From Deltaproteobacteria bacterium (GTDB lineage: Bacteria > Myxococcota > JACRCW01): a DNA stretch of 64,000 nucleotides. Of the stretch, positions 6,622-12,679 are shown one piece after another. A model generated the notes under the pieces. That model did no database searches, was not told where the DNA came from, and saw only the letters and a program-made list of their open reading frames with translations. Both the position numbers and the translations under genes were made by a program. Where the stretch lies: the NCBI GenBank assembly GCA_016218805.1, contig JACRCW010000081.1, forward strand, positions 1-64,000. Reading direction: 5' to 3'. The stretch's first letter is position 1. Every line of letters begins with the position of its first letter.

Positions 6622-7911
6622 TCAGGCGGCCGCGGCGGCGCGCTCCATGCGGCGCGCCCCCGTCCACAACAGCACGGCAGCCACGGCGCACGCCGCGGGG
6701 CACAGCAGCAGCGAATAGCGCATCATGCTCGGGTCGGTGGTGACGCCCAGCGCGTCGCTGGTGCGGCCAATGGCCACCGGGCCGATGCCGTACCCGATGA
6801 CATTCACCACGAAATAATACACGCCAATTCCGAGCCCGCGCAGCTGCGGACCGACGACGTCCTGCACATCCGCCGCGGCCGCGCCCATCCAGCTGAGGGC
6901 AAAACCCATGGCCACGAAATACGGGATGATCACCATCCAGAAGCTGCCCGCCGCCAGCATGGCGAACCACAGCGGGATGCAGATGGCCGCGCACATGGCC
7001 GAGAAGCGCATGCGCCCGCCGGCCCAGCGCTTGCGGAACGCGTCCGCGCCCAAGCCGCCCAGCACGCTGCCGATGAGGCCGCCCACCGCTGCGCTGAAGC
7101 CGGTGTAGCCGCCCACCTCGGCGAGGTCCATGGCGAACACCTTGTGGATGAACGACGGAATCCACATGGACAGCGCCTGCCCCGCCATGGCGAAGAACGC
7201 GTACCCGAAATAGTGGAACCGCAGCGTTCCCGACGACAGCACCACCTTCCACGCATCCGGCGGCGCCCCCGTGGCCGGCTTCTTCTCGGTGCTGCCGCGC
7301 ACCGGCTCGCGCACGAACAGTACGAGCACCGCGAACAGCAGGCCCGGGAAGCCGAGCAGGTAGAACGCCCAGCGCCAGCCGAACTCCCGTTGGATGAGCC
7401 CCCCGACGGTGAGTGCGACGCCCGCCCCAATGGGCACACCCGCGGTGAAGATGGCCGCCGCGGTGGCGCGCATGCGCGTGGGGAACAGGTCCGCCAGCAG
7501 CGACAGCGCCGCGGGGCCCAGCGTGGCTTCGCCCACGCCGACCATCAGGCGGCACAGGAAGATGCCGGTGAAGGACTCCATGAATCCCGTGAGACCGGAG
7601 AACACGCTCCAAATCACCAAGCCCACCGCAATCATCTTCTTGCGCACCACGCGGTCCGCCAGCCGCCCAAACGGCACGCCCAGCAGCGTGTAGAAGATGA
7701 CAAACGACGTGGATCCCAGCAGCGCGAGCTGCGTCTCCGTGAGCGCCATCTCCTTCTTGATGGGGCCGAACAGGATGTAGATGAGCGTGCGGTCCAGGAA
7801 GTTGAGCAGGTAAACGGTGAACAGCACCGCCAGACCGTACCAGCTGGAAGCGGGGATTTTCTCGTCGGCCGCGGGACCCGCAGCCGGACCATCGTTCAGC
7901 AGCAACGCCAT
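6622..7911 (-). CDS. Major facilitator superfamily transporter
   Basis: A 429-residue inner-membrane protein with about 12 hydrophobic helices. It has the MFS loop signature GRLADRVVRKK after TM2, RLMVGVGEATLGPAALSLLADLFP in TM4-5 (split here by position only), a central loop near REPVRGSTEKK, and a GPVAIGRTSDALG repeat of the loop motif in the second half. The GE-A-pattern in TM4 recalls Spinster-like and hexuronate/anion-type MFS carriers. The start at 7911 follows GAGAGG; the longer frame reads back into the upstream gene. It is the last of five genes in a compact operon with two lipoproteins, a lipoprotein hydrolase and an outer-membrane barrel, so it probably moves the product or substrate handled by that envelope set. 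The substrate is unknown. Confidence 0.85.
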   Translation of the reverse strand: MALLLNDGPAAGPAADEKIPASSWYGLAVLFTVYLLNFLDRTLIYILFGPIKKEMALTETQLALLGSTSFVIFYTLLGVPFGRLADRVVRKKMIAVGLVIWSVFSGLTGFMESFTGIFLCRLMVGVGEATLGPAALSLLADLFPTRMRATAAAIFTAGVPIGAGVALTVGGLIQREFGWRWAFYLLGFPGLLFAVLVLFVREPVRGSTEKKPATGAPPDAWKVVLSSGTLRFHYFGYAFFAMAGQALSMWIPSFIHKVFAMDLAEVGGYTGFSAAVGGLIGSVLGGLGADAFRKRWAGGRMRFSAMCAAICIPLWFAMLAAGSFWMVIIPYFVAMGFALSWMGAAAADVQDVVGPQLRGLGIGVYYFVVNVIGYGIGPVAIGRTSDALGVTTDPSMMRYSLLLCPAACAVAAVLLWTGARRMERAAAAA

Positions 7912-7921
7912 GGGGAACCTC

Positions 7922-8788
7922 TCAGAGGGAGAGCCGCCAGACCTCGTGCGCGGAAGTGAAGGAATCAGGAATGGTGTCAGCCAGGCGGCCCATGGGCGAA
8001 ATGACGCGGGCCACCTCGCCCAGGCACTCATGCACCCAGACGTGCGTGACCTGCTGCGCGTCACCGGCGACCAGCGTGCGCCGCAACCGCACCGTCACGC
8101 GCAGCGTGTTCTCCAGGATCATGTCCGGGAGCACCAGGGTGCCGCGGCCGGTCACGCGCACGTCGTAGATGTCGGACAGCGCGGTGGTGAGCCCCAGCAG
8201 CACCGCGTTGGAGGCGCGCGCCGTCGTGGTGACGTGCGCGTCTTCGCGCAGCGGGTATGGGTAGAGCGTCACCGGCACGTCGTAGACCAGCAGGGTGCGG
8301 CCCTCCGCGGGGTCCTGTTCGGCGGAGGCGCTGCCCAGCAGGTGCACGCCCGCGTCATCAATGCGAAGCGGGCCCAGCAGCCGGCCGCCCGGTGTCAGCG
8401 GCCCCGCGTAGTCCGCCTGCGGGAAGGAAGGCGCGAACCACTGGTTCTCCAGCGTCTGCAACTCCAGCCGCGCCAACGGCTGGGAATCGGGCAGCGGGGT
8501 GGAGAAGTCCCAGCGCCGGATGCCGGTCTCATCCACGTAGCCATCCACGTCCACGTCCATGGGACCGGAGCCCACTCGGATGCGCGCCACCGCGCCCAGG
8601 ACAAACGGCATTTCCTGGCGTTCAATCACGCCGTCGTTGTTGGGGCGGCAATCGGGCGCATTGACGGGTGAGACGTATGAGTCGTCCTCGCGTGCGGGGG
8701 CGGGCTCGCAGCCGTAGGGCGCGCCCGCCACGCAGCCTGCGAGCACCGTGGTGGACAACCAGACCAATTGCCGGGATTCACCTTGCAT
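7922..8788 (-). CDS. Lipoprotein, paralogue of the protein at 11482-12489
   Basis: A 288-residue predicted lipoprotein with lipobox TTVLAGC (Cys19). The body aligns by eye with the first gene of this operon. Shared landmarks in order are a Cys near an acidic N/D turn and E-x-P (DGVIERQEMPFVLG here), WDF followed by a Pro-rich turn (RRWDFSTPLP), WFAPSFPQADY, HLLGSASA, DVPVTLYPYPL, a Y-x-V-x-G-x-TLVLP strand, ENTLRVTVRL and THVWVHECLGEVARVISPMG. The family is not one I recognise. It starts 11 bases inside the end of the barrel gene and ends 10 bases before the MFS gene, so it is cotranscribed. The MDVDVDGYVDE segment reads as a secretion marker of acidic, possibly Ca-binding, surface proteins. 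Confidence 0.7.
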   Translation of the reverse strand: MQGESRQLVWLSTTVLAGCVAGAPYGCEPAPAREDDSYVSPVNAPDCRPNNDGVIERQEMPFVLGAVARIRVGSGPMDVDVDGYVDETGIRRWDFSTPLPDSQPLARLELQTLENQWFAPSFPQADYAGPLTPGGRLLGPLRIDDAGVHLLGSASAEQDPAEGRTLLVYDVPVTLYPYPLREDAHVTTTARASNAVLLGLTTALSDIYDVRVTGRGTLVLPDMILENTLRVTVRLRRTLVAGDAQQVTHVWVHECLGEVARVISPMGRLADTIPDSFTSAHEVWRLSL

Positions 8789-10502
8789 AGGCCAACCTCA
8801 CCAGGACCATCTGCGCCATGTTGGGCGCGTGCGCACCGCGTTGGCCGAGCCCGCCCATGGGGAACAGCACGCCGCCGTCCACCCGCGCGGAAAACGCGCC
8901 CATGGCCATGGAGATGGCCGTGTCCAGTTCCAGTCCCAGCGGCGCCACGCCGCCGGGCGCAGACCGCGGGCTGAGCGCGTGGCTGTAGACCGCGTTCCAC
9001 TCAAAGCGCACGCCCTTGATGGGAGATAGCGCGAGTTTACCGCGCGCGTACGCCGCCTCAGACACGCCGCCCAGCAGCGTGCGCCACAGGATGAGGTCCA
9101 CGCGGTACATGGGGTGGAAACGGAAGGAATCAAACCGCGTGTCGTGCGCGCCGTCCAGCTGCGGACCAAACACGTCACCGGGGCGGGAGCCCACAAACGC
9201 ACTGGCATCCTGCTGCGGAAAGCCGGGCGCGGGATCCGGCGTGGCAAAACCCGCTTCACCGAGAATGCCCAGGCGGCCCGCCAACGGCAGCCATTCACCG
9301 ACGAGAACGCCGCCCAGCGGGTTGCCGTACACCGGCCGGCGCAGCTCCACGCCGGGATACGGCGACGGATTGCCGATGCGCAGCGCGCTTGCGACCACTT
9401 CAGCCTCAATGCGGATCTCCTTCCACCACAGGCGCACCCACCCGTCCGCCATGGCCGCTGTGTACTGCCGACGGACCTGGTCAGTGCGGTTCCATCCGCT
9501 GGAGGCGAGCGCCTGGTAGAAGACGGGGCTGTCCATCACCTGGAATTGCACGGAAACGGCGGCGCCGTAGTCCAGCACCCAGCCCTGCAGCCAGCTGCGG
9601 CGGCGCAGCATGTCCACTTCCCACGGTGCGCGGTAGCGCAGGAAGGCCACGCTCAGCGCCTGTTGCGCGGCAGCGGGGCTGAACGGCTGCGGCCCCCCGG
9701 CAACGACGGGCGCGCGCGGCCCGGAAGCGGAGATGTCTGCAGCCGCCGCGACGAAATGACCGAGAAAGGGCATCACCCAGGCGATCCGATCGGCGCGGTC
9801 GCCGCCGTCGTCGTCAAGATCGTCCCCCGCGTTGGCGGCGATGCCGAGGCCGAAGTGCGTGGGGGCGCGGCCGGCGGAGACCACGCCGAGCGGCGTGAGC
9901 ACTTCACCGACGGCGGTGCGGACGCGGACGGCGCTGGCGGGATCCTGGAACGCGGTGCCGGCGACGATCCCAGTACGACCGTTGTACGGCGTGCCGCGCG
10001 GCGTGGAGCCCAGCGTGAGGTTGTCCAGCAGGTCCACTTCCAGGTGGAAGCGGACGTCATCACTGAACCAGATGCTGGGAGCGAGACGCGCGCGCAGGTC
10101 TGCGCCGGCGGTGAGGTCCAGCGGGGTGTCACCCTTGGGCCACAGCGGTTTTCCCGTGGAGGGGGAGACACCGCGGTCAAGGTCCAGGTTGCCATACAGG
10201 GCACCGCGGACGCGCAGGCTGCCGCGCAGGTCCAGCATTTCGCCGGGTTTATGATCGCGGAAGGGTTCGCCGGGGTCACCGAACCCAACGCGCGCATGGG
10301 CGTTGGGTGCAAGGAGGAGCACCGCTGCCACCGCGTAGCCTCCCACCTTGTGGGGGAGGCGGCGAGCGGTGGGGGGCGGCGAGCGGTGGCGGGCGCGGGT
10401 CAATTCACGGGTATTCGGTGGGTCCAGCCCCCCACCCGCCTCGGCGCTTCGCGCCTCGGCGACCTCCCCCACGCGGGGGGAAGTGACGCGGTGGGCGCTC
10501 AT
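8778..10502 (-). CDS. Large outer-membrane beta-barrel protein, Myxococcales-type
   Basis: A protein of about 574 residues if the ATG at 10502 is used. After HKVGGYAVAAVLLLAPNAHA (signal-peptide core and AHA cleavage site) the mature part is rich in alternating strands ending in aromatic residues and Gly-Asn turns. The final strand is MAQMVLVRLAYAR. This fits a porin-sized barrel and, from memory, the Myxococcales-restricted family that NCBI names TIGR04551. The ATG overlaps the upstream stop (ATGA). It is followed by about 50 codons that are translated repeat DNA (see 10345-10490) before the signal core. Alternative starts that skip the repeat are TTG 10403 and GTG 10346, neither with a good ribosome-binding site. 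Operon position suggests an outer-membrane channel for the compound moved by the MFS protein. Confidence 0.65.
   Translation of the reverse strand: MSAHRVTSPRVGEVAEARSAEAGGGLDPPNTRELTRARHRSPPPTARRLPHKVGGYAVAAVLLLAPNAHARVGFGDPGEPFRDHKPGEMLDLRGSLRVRGALYGNLDLDRGVSPSTGKPLWPKGDTPLDLTAGADLRARLAPSIWFSDDVRFHLEVDLLDNLTLGSTPRGTPYNGRTGIVAGTAFQDPASAVRVRTAVGEVLTPLGVVSAGRAPTHFGLGIAANAGDDLDDDGGDRADRIAWVMPFLGHFVAAAADISASGPRAPVVAGGPQPFSPAAAQQALSVAFLRYRAPWEVDMLRRRSWLQGWVLDYGAAVSVQFQVMDSPVFYQALASSGWNRTDQVRRQYTAAMADGWVRLWWKEIRIEAEVVASALRIGNPSPYPGVELRRPVYGNPLGGVLVGEWLPLAGRLGILGEAGFATPDPAPGFPQQDASAFVGSRPGDVFGPQLDGAHDTRFDSFRFHPMYRVDLILWRTLLGGVSEAAYARGKLALSPIKGVRFEWNAVYSHALSPRSAPGGVAPLGLELDTAISMAMGAFSARVDGGVLFPMGGLGQRGAHAPNMAQMVLVRLAYAR
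10345..10490. repeat. Structured GC-rich REP/intergenic-type repeat element
   Basis: The element is bounded by inverted arms GTGGGGGAGG (10350-10359) and CCTCCCCCAC (10463-10472). Inside are a 15-base direct repeat GGCGGCGAGCGGTGG (10358-10372 and 10375-10389), a GGCGC-TTC-GCGCC hairpin (10443-10455) and a CCCCC-ACGC-GGGGG hairpin (about 10466-10480). This layout matches the dispersed palindromic repeats seen between genes in GC-rich Proteobacteria. Here it lies inside the reading frame of the barrel gene, between the ATG and the signal-peptide core. No second copy was found in the window. Confidence 0.6.
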
Positions 10503-11485
10503 GGCGTGGCGCTCCCGGCGGCGGGCGTGGTGGTGCGCCGCTCGCGCGCCGCCCGTGACCGATCGATCTTTCCGAGCAGTTCCTCGACGATGCGGATGAC
10601 GGCCTGGGGTCGCTCCCACAATGGCACGTGCCCGCACGCGGGGAGCACCTCAAACCGCGCGCCATCCACCAGTGCGGCCAGTTGCTTCCCCGCCGCCAGC
10701 GGCGTGACGCGGTCATCCTCGCCCCAGATGATGACGGAGGGCAGACCCAGTTCCCGGTACCGCACCTGGTCCGGGCCGTAGTCCATGCCGCGTACCACGT
10801 TCAGCAGCGCATACAGACTCCCCGGTCTGAGCGTGTTTCCGCGGAACTCGTCTATTGCATCCGCATTGGCAAACCGGCCGCGGTCATGGAACGCAAGGAT
10901 GTACTTCTCTCCAATGACCTCCTTGAATTGCGTGGAAAACACAAACTCCCCGAGCACGGGAACCTTGGCCCAGCGGAACGCGGACGGGAGCTGCTCGTCC
11001 ATGGCGAATGCGTCCACAAGGATCAGCCCACCCCACCGCTCCGGGTCGTCCAGCGCGGCGCGCAGCACCACGCCGCCGCCATAGCTGTGCCCCACGAGCA
11101 CCGGCTTCACCAGTCCCAGCTTGTCGGCCAGGGCGCGGACGTCGCGCGCATGCGCCGCGGGTCCGTAGGCACCGCGGGGACGCTCGGACATGCCAAACCC
11201 GCGCTGGTCAAGGCTCACCACGCGGCGGTTCTCGGCGAGCGCGGGTTGCACTGCGGCCCAACTCTCCAGGCGGGACGCGTACCCGTGCACCAGCACCAGC
11301 GGTGTGCGGCCGGTGTCAACGCCGGAATCGCGCACGCGCACCCACGCGCCACCCAACTCCAGGAAGCGGTCCGTCGGCGGCGTGCCGCGTTCCAGCGCGG
11401 GTGCCGTGCGCGCATGCGGGCCGGCCATCAGCACACAGCCGCTGGCTCCCACAAACAGCGCTACGGCGCACGCAGCCCGGTTCAC
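10499..11485 (-). CDS. Alpha/beta-hydrolase lipoprotein
   Basis: A 328-residue protein. The GTG at 11485 overlaps the previous stop (GTGA) and gives an N-terminus with lipobox VGASGC (Cys17); the longer frame runs through another gene. The hydrolase domain has VLVHGYASRLESW (oxyanion region), nucleophile Ser134 in GHSYGG, Asp258 in WGEDDRVTP and His286 in CGHVPLWERP, with the cap region between. The complete triad suggests an active esterase, lipase or haloalkane-dehalogenase-like enzyme. The lipobox places it at the envelope, unusual for this mostly cytoplasmic family. Its operon with two paralogous lipoproteins, a barrel and an MFS carrier suggests processing of an ester during transport. 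The substrate is unknown. Confidence 0.8.
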   Translation of the reverse strand: MNRAACAVALFVGASGCVLMAGPHARTAPALERGTPPTDRFLELGGAWVRVRDSGVDTGRTPLVLVHGYASRLESWAAVQPALAENRRVVSLDQRGFGMSERPRGAYGPAAHARDVRALADKLGLVKPVLVGHSYGGGVVLRAALDDPERWGGLILVDAFAMDEQLPSAFRWAKVPVLGEFVFSTQFKEVIGEKYILAFHDRGRFANADAIDEFRGNTLRPGSLYALLNVVRGMDYGPDQVRYRELGLPSVIIWGEDDRVTPLAAGKQLAALVDGARFEVLPACGHVPLWERPQAVIRIVEELLGKIDRSRAARERRTTTPAAGSATP

Positions 11486-12489
11486 GGTGGCAGCCCCAGG
11501 CGCCGCAGCTCCGCGGCCTGCGTGAAGACCACCTCGGCCTCGCCCTCCTGGCTGACCACCTGGGTCACCACGCCGTAACACGGCGTCATGAACGAATACC
11601 GCACCCAGTGGTAGTTCAGCGCAAATGGCCACACCGCGATGGGCACGCTGACGTCTTGCACCAACCGCACGCGCAGCGTGTGGAAGCTGCCCGCCGGTAC
11701 CAACACACGTCCCGCGGCATCCACGGTGAGCTCATAGGTGTCATTGGACAGATAGAACGGGTTTCCCTCCAGCGTGCCGGTGGTCTGGGTGGTGGTGCTG
11801 AAGGATACACCCAGCACCAGCGGGAAGCGCAGCACGGTCACCGGCGGCGTGTGCACCGTCCGCGTCACGTCCAGCGCCGCGCTCGCCTCGCCCAGCAGCG
11901 TCAGCTCCGTCGCCGTGCGCCGGTAGACCGCGTACAGCGTGGCCGCGCCGTCCAGCGCCACGACGTAGGTAGCCTCCGGGTAATGGTCCTTGAACCACAG
12001 CCCGTCCAGCGCCAGCGCGGACACCTCAATGGGACGGTCTCCCGGCACGGCGCCGGTGAAGTCCCACTGCACCGCGCCGGACGCCACCGTGCCCACCAGG
12101 TCCACCGCCAGCGGCCCCGCGTCCGCGGCCTCCAGAAAGCGCACGGGGACGCCCAGTGCCAGCGGCAGCTCCGCGGCGGTCAGCGTGTTGTCCTCGTCAT
12201 GCGGGCACGCGGCACCGGCGTCCGCCTGTCCGCCGTCATGTTGCGTTGCAGCATCAGGGGTGTTCCCGGCGTCCACGGATCCCCCGGCGTCCGGTGCGCC
12301 GCCCGCATCTGGGCTGCCGGCGTCCGTGCCGGTGTCATTGCGCAGGCAGCGGCCCCCGCGGCACACCAGCCCCACCGCGCACTGGTCATCCGCCGCGCAC
12401 TCCTTCTCCGTCGTGGGCGTGCATGCCAACGCCGCCGGGAGCGCGGCCACCGCCACCACCACCGCCCATCGCCGCCGCACGTCCGTCAC
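11482..12489 (-). CDS. Lipoprotein with Cys-rich head and Asp/Ala/Gly linker, operon leader
   Basis: A 335-residue lipoprotein. The start is GTG 12489 after GGAGA; the signal MTDVRRRWAVVVAVAALP ends at lipobox ALAC (Cys23). A short Cys-rich segment (CAADDQCAVGLVCRGGRC) resembles heads found on many myxobacterial surface lipoproteins. A low-complexity DAG/PDAGG linker follows. The C-terminal 240 residues are paralogous to the lipoprotein at 7922-8788 (shared WDF, WF-x-P-x-A-x-Y, LLGEASA, PPVTVLRFPL, TLRVRLV and a late PCYGVVTQVVSQEG block). It is the first gene of the five-gene operon; the promoter must lie in 12490-12679, shared with the divergent SixA-like gene. Function unknown. Confidence 0.72.
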   Translation of the reverse strand: MTDVRRRWAVVVAVAALPAALACTPTTEKECAADDQCAVGLVCRGGRCLRNDTGTDAGSPDAGGAPDAGGSVDAGNTPDAATQHDGGQADAGAACPHDEDNTLTAAELPLALGVPVRFLEAADAGPLAVDLVGTVASGAVQWDFTGAVPGDRPIEVSALALDGLWFKDHYPEATYVVALDGAATLYAVYRRTATELTLLGEASAALDVTRTVHTPPVTVLRFPLVLGVSFSTTTQTTGTLEGNPFYLSNDTYELTVDAAGRVLVPAGSFHTLRVRLVQDVSVPIAVWPFALNYHWVRYSFMTPCYGVVTQVVSQEGEAEVVFTQAAELRRLGLPP

Positions 12490-12679
12490 CGGTGTCTCCT
12501 CGCCAAGGCGCGCGGACACTCGACGCCCGGCACGCCCTTGTCAACGCGCTTCCCATCCCTCATTGCTGCACTGCATCAAATACGCGGGAGGGGGCTCGGC
12601 CCACGTCGCAGCCGTGGCGGCGCGGGCGGGCCGTGATACGGTCACGGATATTGCTATGCAGCAACACGGAGGGCGGGGC

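Follow-up and report, generated by a model that had tools for sequence, protein, structure and literature searches.

Elements of the REP/BIME/REPIN type that carry GTAG or CGTC tags are short palindromes present in dozens of copies, some of them arranged as inverted pairs (Nunvar 2010; Di Nocera 2013; PMC3733652). In a subset, the palindrome is immediately preceded on its 5' side by the tetranucleotide GTAG or GTCG, and subfamilies are distinguished by covarying stems (PMC3733652). Most are extragenic, and their presence within genes, including at N-termini, has already been described (PMC3733652). Mismatch bulges have been described in E. coli REPs (PMC8266576) and an unpaired GA in P. aeruginosa elements (PMC3733652). 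Rickettsia palindromic elements (RPEs) lie in frame in unrelated protein genes, and N-terminal RPE-1 fusions are reported to be expressed (PMC10969869, PMC3733652). In a single enterobacterial case, RU-2/YPAL in YPO1552, a repeat provides N-terminal residues and part of a signal motif (Delihas 2007).

Here we describe a palindromic repeat at the start of an outer-membrane protein (OMP) gene in the window, a 64,000-nucleotide stretch of contig JACRCW010000081.1 from a Deltaproteobacteria bacterium. The family to which it belongs resembles the REP/BIME/REPIN elements in copy number, inverted pairing, covarying stems, and mostly extragenic location. Some of its copies carry a GTAG or GTCG tag and many are untagged. 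Unlike those elements, it has two consecutive hairpins and a conserved GGGTGGGGGG tail, and it is found repeatedly downstream of a coupled start codon and upstream of a secretory or membrane core. Like the RPEs, it is a palindromic repeat found in frame in unrelated protein genes, and at the window locus the frame is open, the start is conserved, and translation is predicted from sequence. It falls outside the RPE family, however: homologues place the host among the Myxococcota, an Rfam search matched no RNA family, its sequence and host are unrelated to those of RPEs, and its intragenic copies were found only at extreme N-termini, read in several frames. In contrast to RU-2/YPAL, the repeat here occupies the n-region in front of an ancestral core, and the insertions concern several genes. 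The open-licence literature yielded no report of a REP family whose copies recurrently separate a conserved stop-overlapping start from a secretory core.

Results and Discussion

The OMP gene occupies positions 8778-10502 on the minus strand, with a frame that is open from ATG 10502 down to 8778 (574 codons). The TIGR04551 profile matches the protein over the whole model with 264 bits (E 2e-78); the curated cut-off is 300. By this score, the OMP is a relative of TIGR04551 and not a formal member. A Pfam search with the OMP gave no match, and its homologues are 55-56% and 36-39% identical. Directly upstream lies an alpha/beta hydrolase gene (10499-11632, minus strand; Pfam Abhydrolase_1, 116 bits), the TGA of which (10501-10499) overlaps the OMP ATG (10502-10500) as ATGA. 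The predicted N-terminus reads MSAHRV, TSPRVGEVAEARSAEAGGGLDPPNTRELTRARHRSPPPTARRLPHKVGGYA, the hydrophobic core and cleavage region VAAVLLLAPNAHA (10293-10331, minus strand), and then the mature RVGFGD. The last motif is kept in the best homologue (55% identity), where it follows MIKRLLCLVLFVGSLPAAA. The hydrolase-OMP pair is flanked by paralogous secreted proteins at 7925-8788 and 11485-12519 (both minus strand; 28% identity over 250 aa, E 2e-16), neither of which has a clear Pfam match and the second of which contains DAG-rich linkers. This arrangement suggests one envelope-protein operon.

OMP residues 6-56 lie entirely inside a 157-bp, BIME-like inverted repeat pair that runs from GCGTAG to TGACGC (10333-10489); SAEAGGGLDPPNTR is an example of the peptide that it encodes by conceptual translation. 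The unit comprises one full copy and a head-to-head inverted partial copy. The full copy (10428-10483, minus strand) consists of palindrome A (CTTCCCCCCGCGTGGGGGAGG), TC, hairpin B (GCCGAGGCGC GAA GCGCCGAGGC), and GGGTGGGGGG; it matches the exact family pattern and scores 56.9 bits with cmsearch (E 1e-10). The tag GCGTCA lies 5' of its palindrome A (10484-10489, minus strand), where sister copies have GCGTCG, GCGTAG, or GCGTGA. The partial copy (10335-10376, plus strand) is made up of a GTAG tag (10335-10338), the palindrome CCTCCCACCTTGTGGGGGAGG (10339-10359), and the arm GGTGGGGGG (10368-10376), and scores 25.2 bits (E 0.001) over 10336-10376. It keeps the outer palindrome and the arm without the inner hairpin B, and contains two tandem 17-nt copies of GGGAGGCGGCGAGCGGT (10354-10387, plus strand). 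The outer arms of the pair, 10328-10359 and 10463-10494, are 81% complementary across 32 nt. The fold energy of the whole element is unexceptional by itself (DNA z -1.5, RNA z -2.7), and its non-randomness rests on the repeat family, not on fold energy. Set against a MITE, which has terminal inverted repeats and a target-site duplication, the pair shows inverted ends (GCGTAG/TGACGC), and no clear duplication can be assigned without an empty site. Because the length of the unit is 1 mod 3, the insertion boundaries are approximate. The initial annotation had described a palindromic repeat inserted in frame into the OMP signal peptide, and the 157-bp unit indeed lies in frame between the overlapping ATG 10502 and the hydrophobic core. 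The extent given there, about 50 codons followed by the core, also stands; the edge at 10345 does not, as the element reaches the Y-A residues before the core, at about 10333.

Other copies in the genome, the absence of which would have refuted the initial annotation, were found by BLAST, pattern, and covariance-model searches. BLAST with the element finds 41 places in the host genome. The pattern GGGGGAGGTCG-N8-38-GGGTGGGGGG occurs 34 times, with none in a reversed control (34-36 versus 0-4 across exact-pattern searches), while among 116 further genomes from the phylum just 4 contain it, in one or two copies each. A covariance model built from 24 copies retrieves 61 copies at its cut-off of E <= 0.0054. 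A family member consists of palindrome A (CCTCCCCC-loop-GGGGGAGG), TC, a hairpin B that varies between copies, and GGGTGGGGGG. Among 50 copies, hairpin B has 35 distinct sequences with 91% of positions paired, as compared to 56 +/- 4% when the 3' arms are swapped. A tandem G-A/A-G stem mismatch is present in one subclass, to which the window copy belongs. Tags 5' of palindrome A are GTCG in 11, GTAG in 5, GTGA in 1, and GTCA in 1 of the 61 copies, and most others are untagged. Inverted pairs occur at the window locus, C29:21756-21933, C112:19359-19508, and C112:19592-19738. Nearly all copies sit between gene bodies defined by coding potential and are thus predominantly extragenic. Stop codons interrupt only 2% of element frames, as compared to 14% in mononucleotide shuffles, and the encoded, Arg-rich peptides have a positive mean net charge in all six frames. 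A plasmid search with the window locus gave no match.

At two loci, direct repeats adjoin a copy. Over the ~60 nt that follow the copy at C42:84117-84172, GGGGAGGTCACGCG(T/C)G is directly repeated four times, extending the end of the element immediately ahead of an S8-type protease signal peptide. The resulting stretch offers several successive Shine-Dalgarno/GTG combinations and looks like a ribosome-binding site prone to slippage. On C54, beside the copy at 7670-7730, a tandem GGCGACGCAGCTCGGCGCGT/GGCGACGCGGGTTGGCGCGT array (L211, 3058-3200) has grown from the GGCGACGC end of a repeat copy.

Mobilization of the family was also considered. Two RAYT-like genes (NF047646) score 79.8 bits (C54:78377) and 75.9 bits (C163:59716) against a cut-off of 80. 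Unlike in REP/BIME/REPIN systems, no RAYT gene flanked by the window repeat family was found in the draft genome, which is 92% complete. We infer that mobilization may be of the RAYT type.

The ancestral state of the OMP N-terminus was examined with 80 homologues fetched from an alignment scan, mostly titled Myxococcales, Myxococcota, or Deltaproteobacteria, of which 77 have an alignable N-terminus. These homologues are distant (<= 56% identity), and a single-protein scan of named genomes found no close relative. An overlap was scored when an ATGA, GTGA, or TTGA start shared bases with the 3' end of a preceding ORF that was 100 codons or longer. Such an overlap is present in 61/77 homologues. 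The median distance to the residue aligned with R71 is 24 residues, versus 70 here; a few homologues reach 64-154 residues before this reference, so long N-termini are rare and not unique. The repeat residues are absent from all displayed homologous N-termini. In 69/73 homologous loci, a hydrolase homologue lies directly upstream of the OMP. The conserved overlap and this synteny support the proposal of the initial annotation that ATG 10502 is the ancestral start, and its suggested comparison of N-termini revealed no diverged version of the 50 residues in relatives.

These comparisons also bear on how the repeat came to lie in the gene. The genome is a draft of 170 contigs and several copies lie near contig ends, so that unrelated sequences might have been joined at a repeat during assembly. 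The reading frame is intact, however, and the hydrolase and the OMP are neighbours in nearly all of the other loci; we rejected such a chimera as very unlikely on the basis of this synteny. Still more improbable is an ancient, genuine long n-region that merely resembles the repeats: the same sequence occurs at about 61 places and is missing from the homologues, the N-termini of which are short, and this candidate was rejected as well. Judged from these alignments, the repeat in the OMP is a genuine insertion, because homologues with the same overlap have short N-termini and synteny leaves little room for a chimera.

Whether the inserted residues are made depends on the start codon. ATG 10502 (10500-10502, minus strand) is preceded by an ordinary Shine-Dalgarno sequence (GGGAG, -6.6 kcal/mol). 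The repeat supplies Shine-Dalgarno-like GGGAGG near downstream GTG codons, which raises the alternative that the start has been displaced, with initiation within or after the repeat via its own GGGGGAGG; the extra residues would then never be made, and the repeat would be a mobile ribosome-binding site. The strongest of the starts compared fits this alternative: GTG 10331 (10329-10331, minus strand), which the initial annotation had overlooked, has the repeat-derived GGTGGGAGG at good spacing and -10.2 kcal/mol. Starting there, however, leaves the 13-residue VAAVLLLAPNAHA, which has no Lys or Arg and is an improbable Sec signal, and the two in-frame candidates named in the initial annotation, TTG 10403 and GTG 10346, have no Shine-Dalgarno match. 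At three other loci (C150, C29, and C1), no start located after the repeat and ahead of the core would keep the signal intact, and the stop-overlapping start is conserved in homologues. The alternative gains from Di Nocera et al. 2013, who hold many N-terminal REPs to be truly extragenic (PMC3733652), and from C167:3687, C133:83533, and C164:3248, where GGGGGAGG or GGGGGAG lies just before plausible starts. At these three loci, a mobile Shine-Dalgarno looks like a better reading than a translated repeat. At the first of them (C167:3687-3742), the repeat ends in GGGGGGAGATGATGCCGATG where a response-regulator-like protein begins, and Shine-Dalgarno and start codon alike seem to come from the element. 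For the OMP, we consider a displaced start unlikely, yet still a serious rival. Translation from ATG 10502 is favoured today, because TTG 10403 and GTG 10346 lack a Shine-Dalgarno and GTG 10331 would leave an uncharged 13-residue signal. The OMP export signal thus probably carries ~50 extra repeat-encoded residues. The translation start is the weak point of this reading, as a repeat-borne Shine-Dalgarno could shift initiation downstream.

The element could instead have been kept for its hairpins in the operon mRNA, where it would stabilize or attenuate between hydrolase and OMP, translation being incidental. The hairpins are stable in the RNA (z -2.7, as above), and REPs have been proposed to be RNA elements (PMC3733652). 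No conserved hairpin was seen at the hydrolase-OMP junction in homologues, however, and such a role does not compete with the insertion history; we regard it as doubtful to about the same degree as a displaced start.

To describe the insertion in its genomic setting, genes around all copies were called with our own 3-periodic model trained on the host genome, a non-standard caller; protein names at the recurrent loci are our reading of the sequences, made without a family search. In 31 cases, a gene lies within 130 nt of the repeat and points away from it. In eight of these, an in-frame xTGA start upstream of the repeat overlaps the previous stop, and all eight frames enter a signal, lipoprotein, or transmembrane (TM) core, a recurrence that the initial annotation had not noted. 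Besides the window OMP, these are a putative solute-binding/permease fusion (C29:21756-21933, where a complete inverted pair directly follows the start), a putative Ig-like lipoprotein (C150:17727), a putative TonB-dependent receptor (C112:32760), a putative NosL-like lipoprotein (C68:27926), a putative PMT-like glycosyltransferase (C13:21872), a putative lipoprotein (C1:5821), and a putative membrane protein (C146:35028), where ATG codons also follow the repeat and read-through is not required. In a ninth gene, for a putative PEGA-like secreted protein (C91:27697), the repeat separates the signal core from an ATG that has a good Shine-Dalgarno. At C106:11390-11446, a repeat immediately precedes the first TM segment of a CtaA/COX15-like protein; no good start follows this repeat, which is a possible further N-terminal fusion.

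Homologues of three of the eight proteins likewise begin at an xTGA start and have short N-termini, with medians of 20.5 versus 84 residues here for the C29 transporter (n = 10), 18 versus 45 for the TonB receptor (n = 6), and 31 versus 47 for the glycosyltransferase. By this measure, the insert is again missing from homologues at these loci. Hydrophobicity was compared using a Kyte-Doolittle cut-off of 2.2 for an 11-residue window within 45 residues, picked after the data had been seen. The start-overlap cases pass in 7/8 instances versus 56/295 genes (Fisher p 9e-5), a value that is indicative only given the post hoc cut-off, and the same caution applies to all five-prime neighbours (18/31, p 7e-6). 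The eight cases do not differ significantly from the remaining five-prime neighbours (p 0.10), and the secretory or membrane preference may therefore apply to five-prime neighbours generally and not just to translated copies.

Conclusions

Our analysis allows us to propose how the repeat became part of the OMP gene. We read the repeat as a lineage-specific REP/BIME family, which coupled secretory genes tolerate in their Arg-rich n-regions. A pair of this type would have entered the first few codons of the translationally coupled OMP gene. Because the element is nearly stop-free in any frame and encodes Arg-rich, net-positive peptides, the frame would stay open. Translation would still begin at the stop-overlapping ATG 10502, giving a signal peptide of ~70 residues with an n-region ~52 residues longer. 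Arg-rich sequence added before an intact hydrophobic core can be tolerated in Sec signals. The n-region would tolerate the insert because a positive charge ahead of a hydrophobic core is most of what export requires, and we infer that the long signal functions in export. A junction with overlapping start and stop has no spacer, so the n-region would be among the few sites where an insertion survives. The same process would account for the remaining copies that separate a coupled start from a secretory or membrane core, with purifying selection acting on random insertions; targeting is neither shown nor needed. Taken as a whole, insertion of a REP/BIME pair into the coupled gene and its translation from ATG 10502 as a lengthened n-region is the best explanation, and we regard it as probable.

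REPs at annotated N-termini are often dismissed as misannotated starts. Here, most homologues share the stop-overlapping start, which establishes the ancestral start without recourse to annotation and argues that the repeat is really translated. The finding offers as a concrete rule that coupled secretory genes tolerate such insertions in the n-region; this rule could be used in genome annotation and tested directly by N-terminal proteomics. More tentatively, the n-region or N-terminal anchor of coupled genes may be a recurrent permissive landing site, at which the repeat would have become translated signal sequence in at least seven genes, diversifying export signals or tuning expression via a mobile Shine-Dalgarno.
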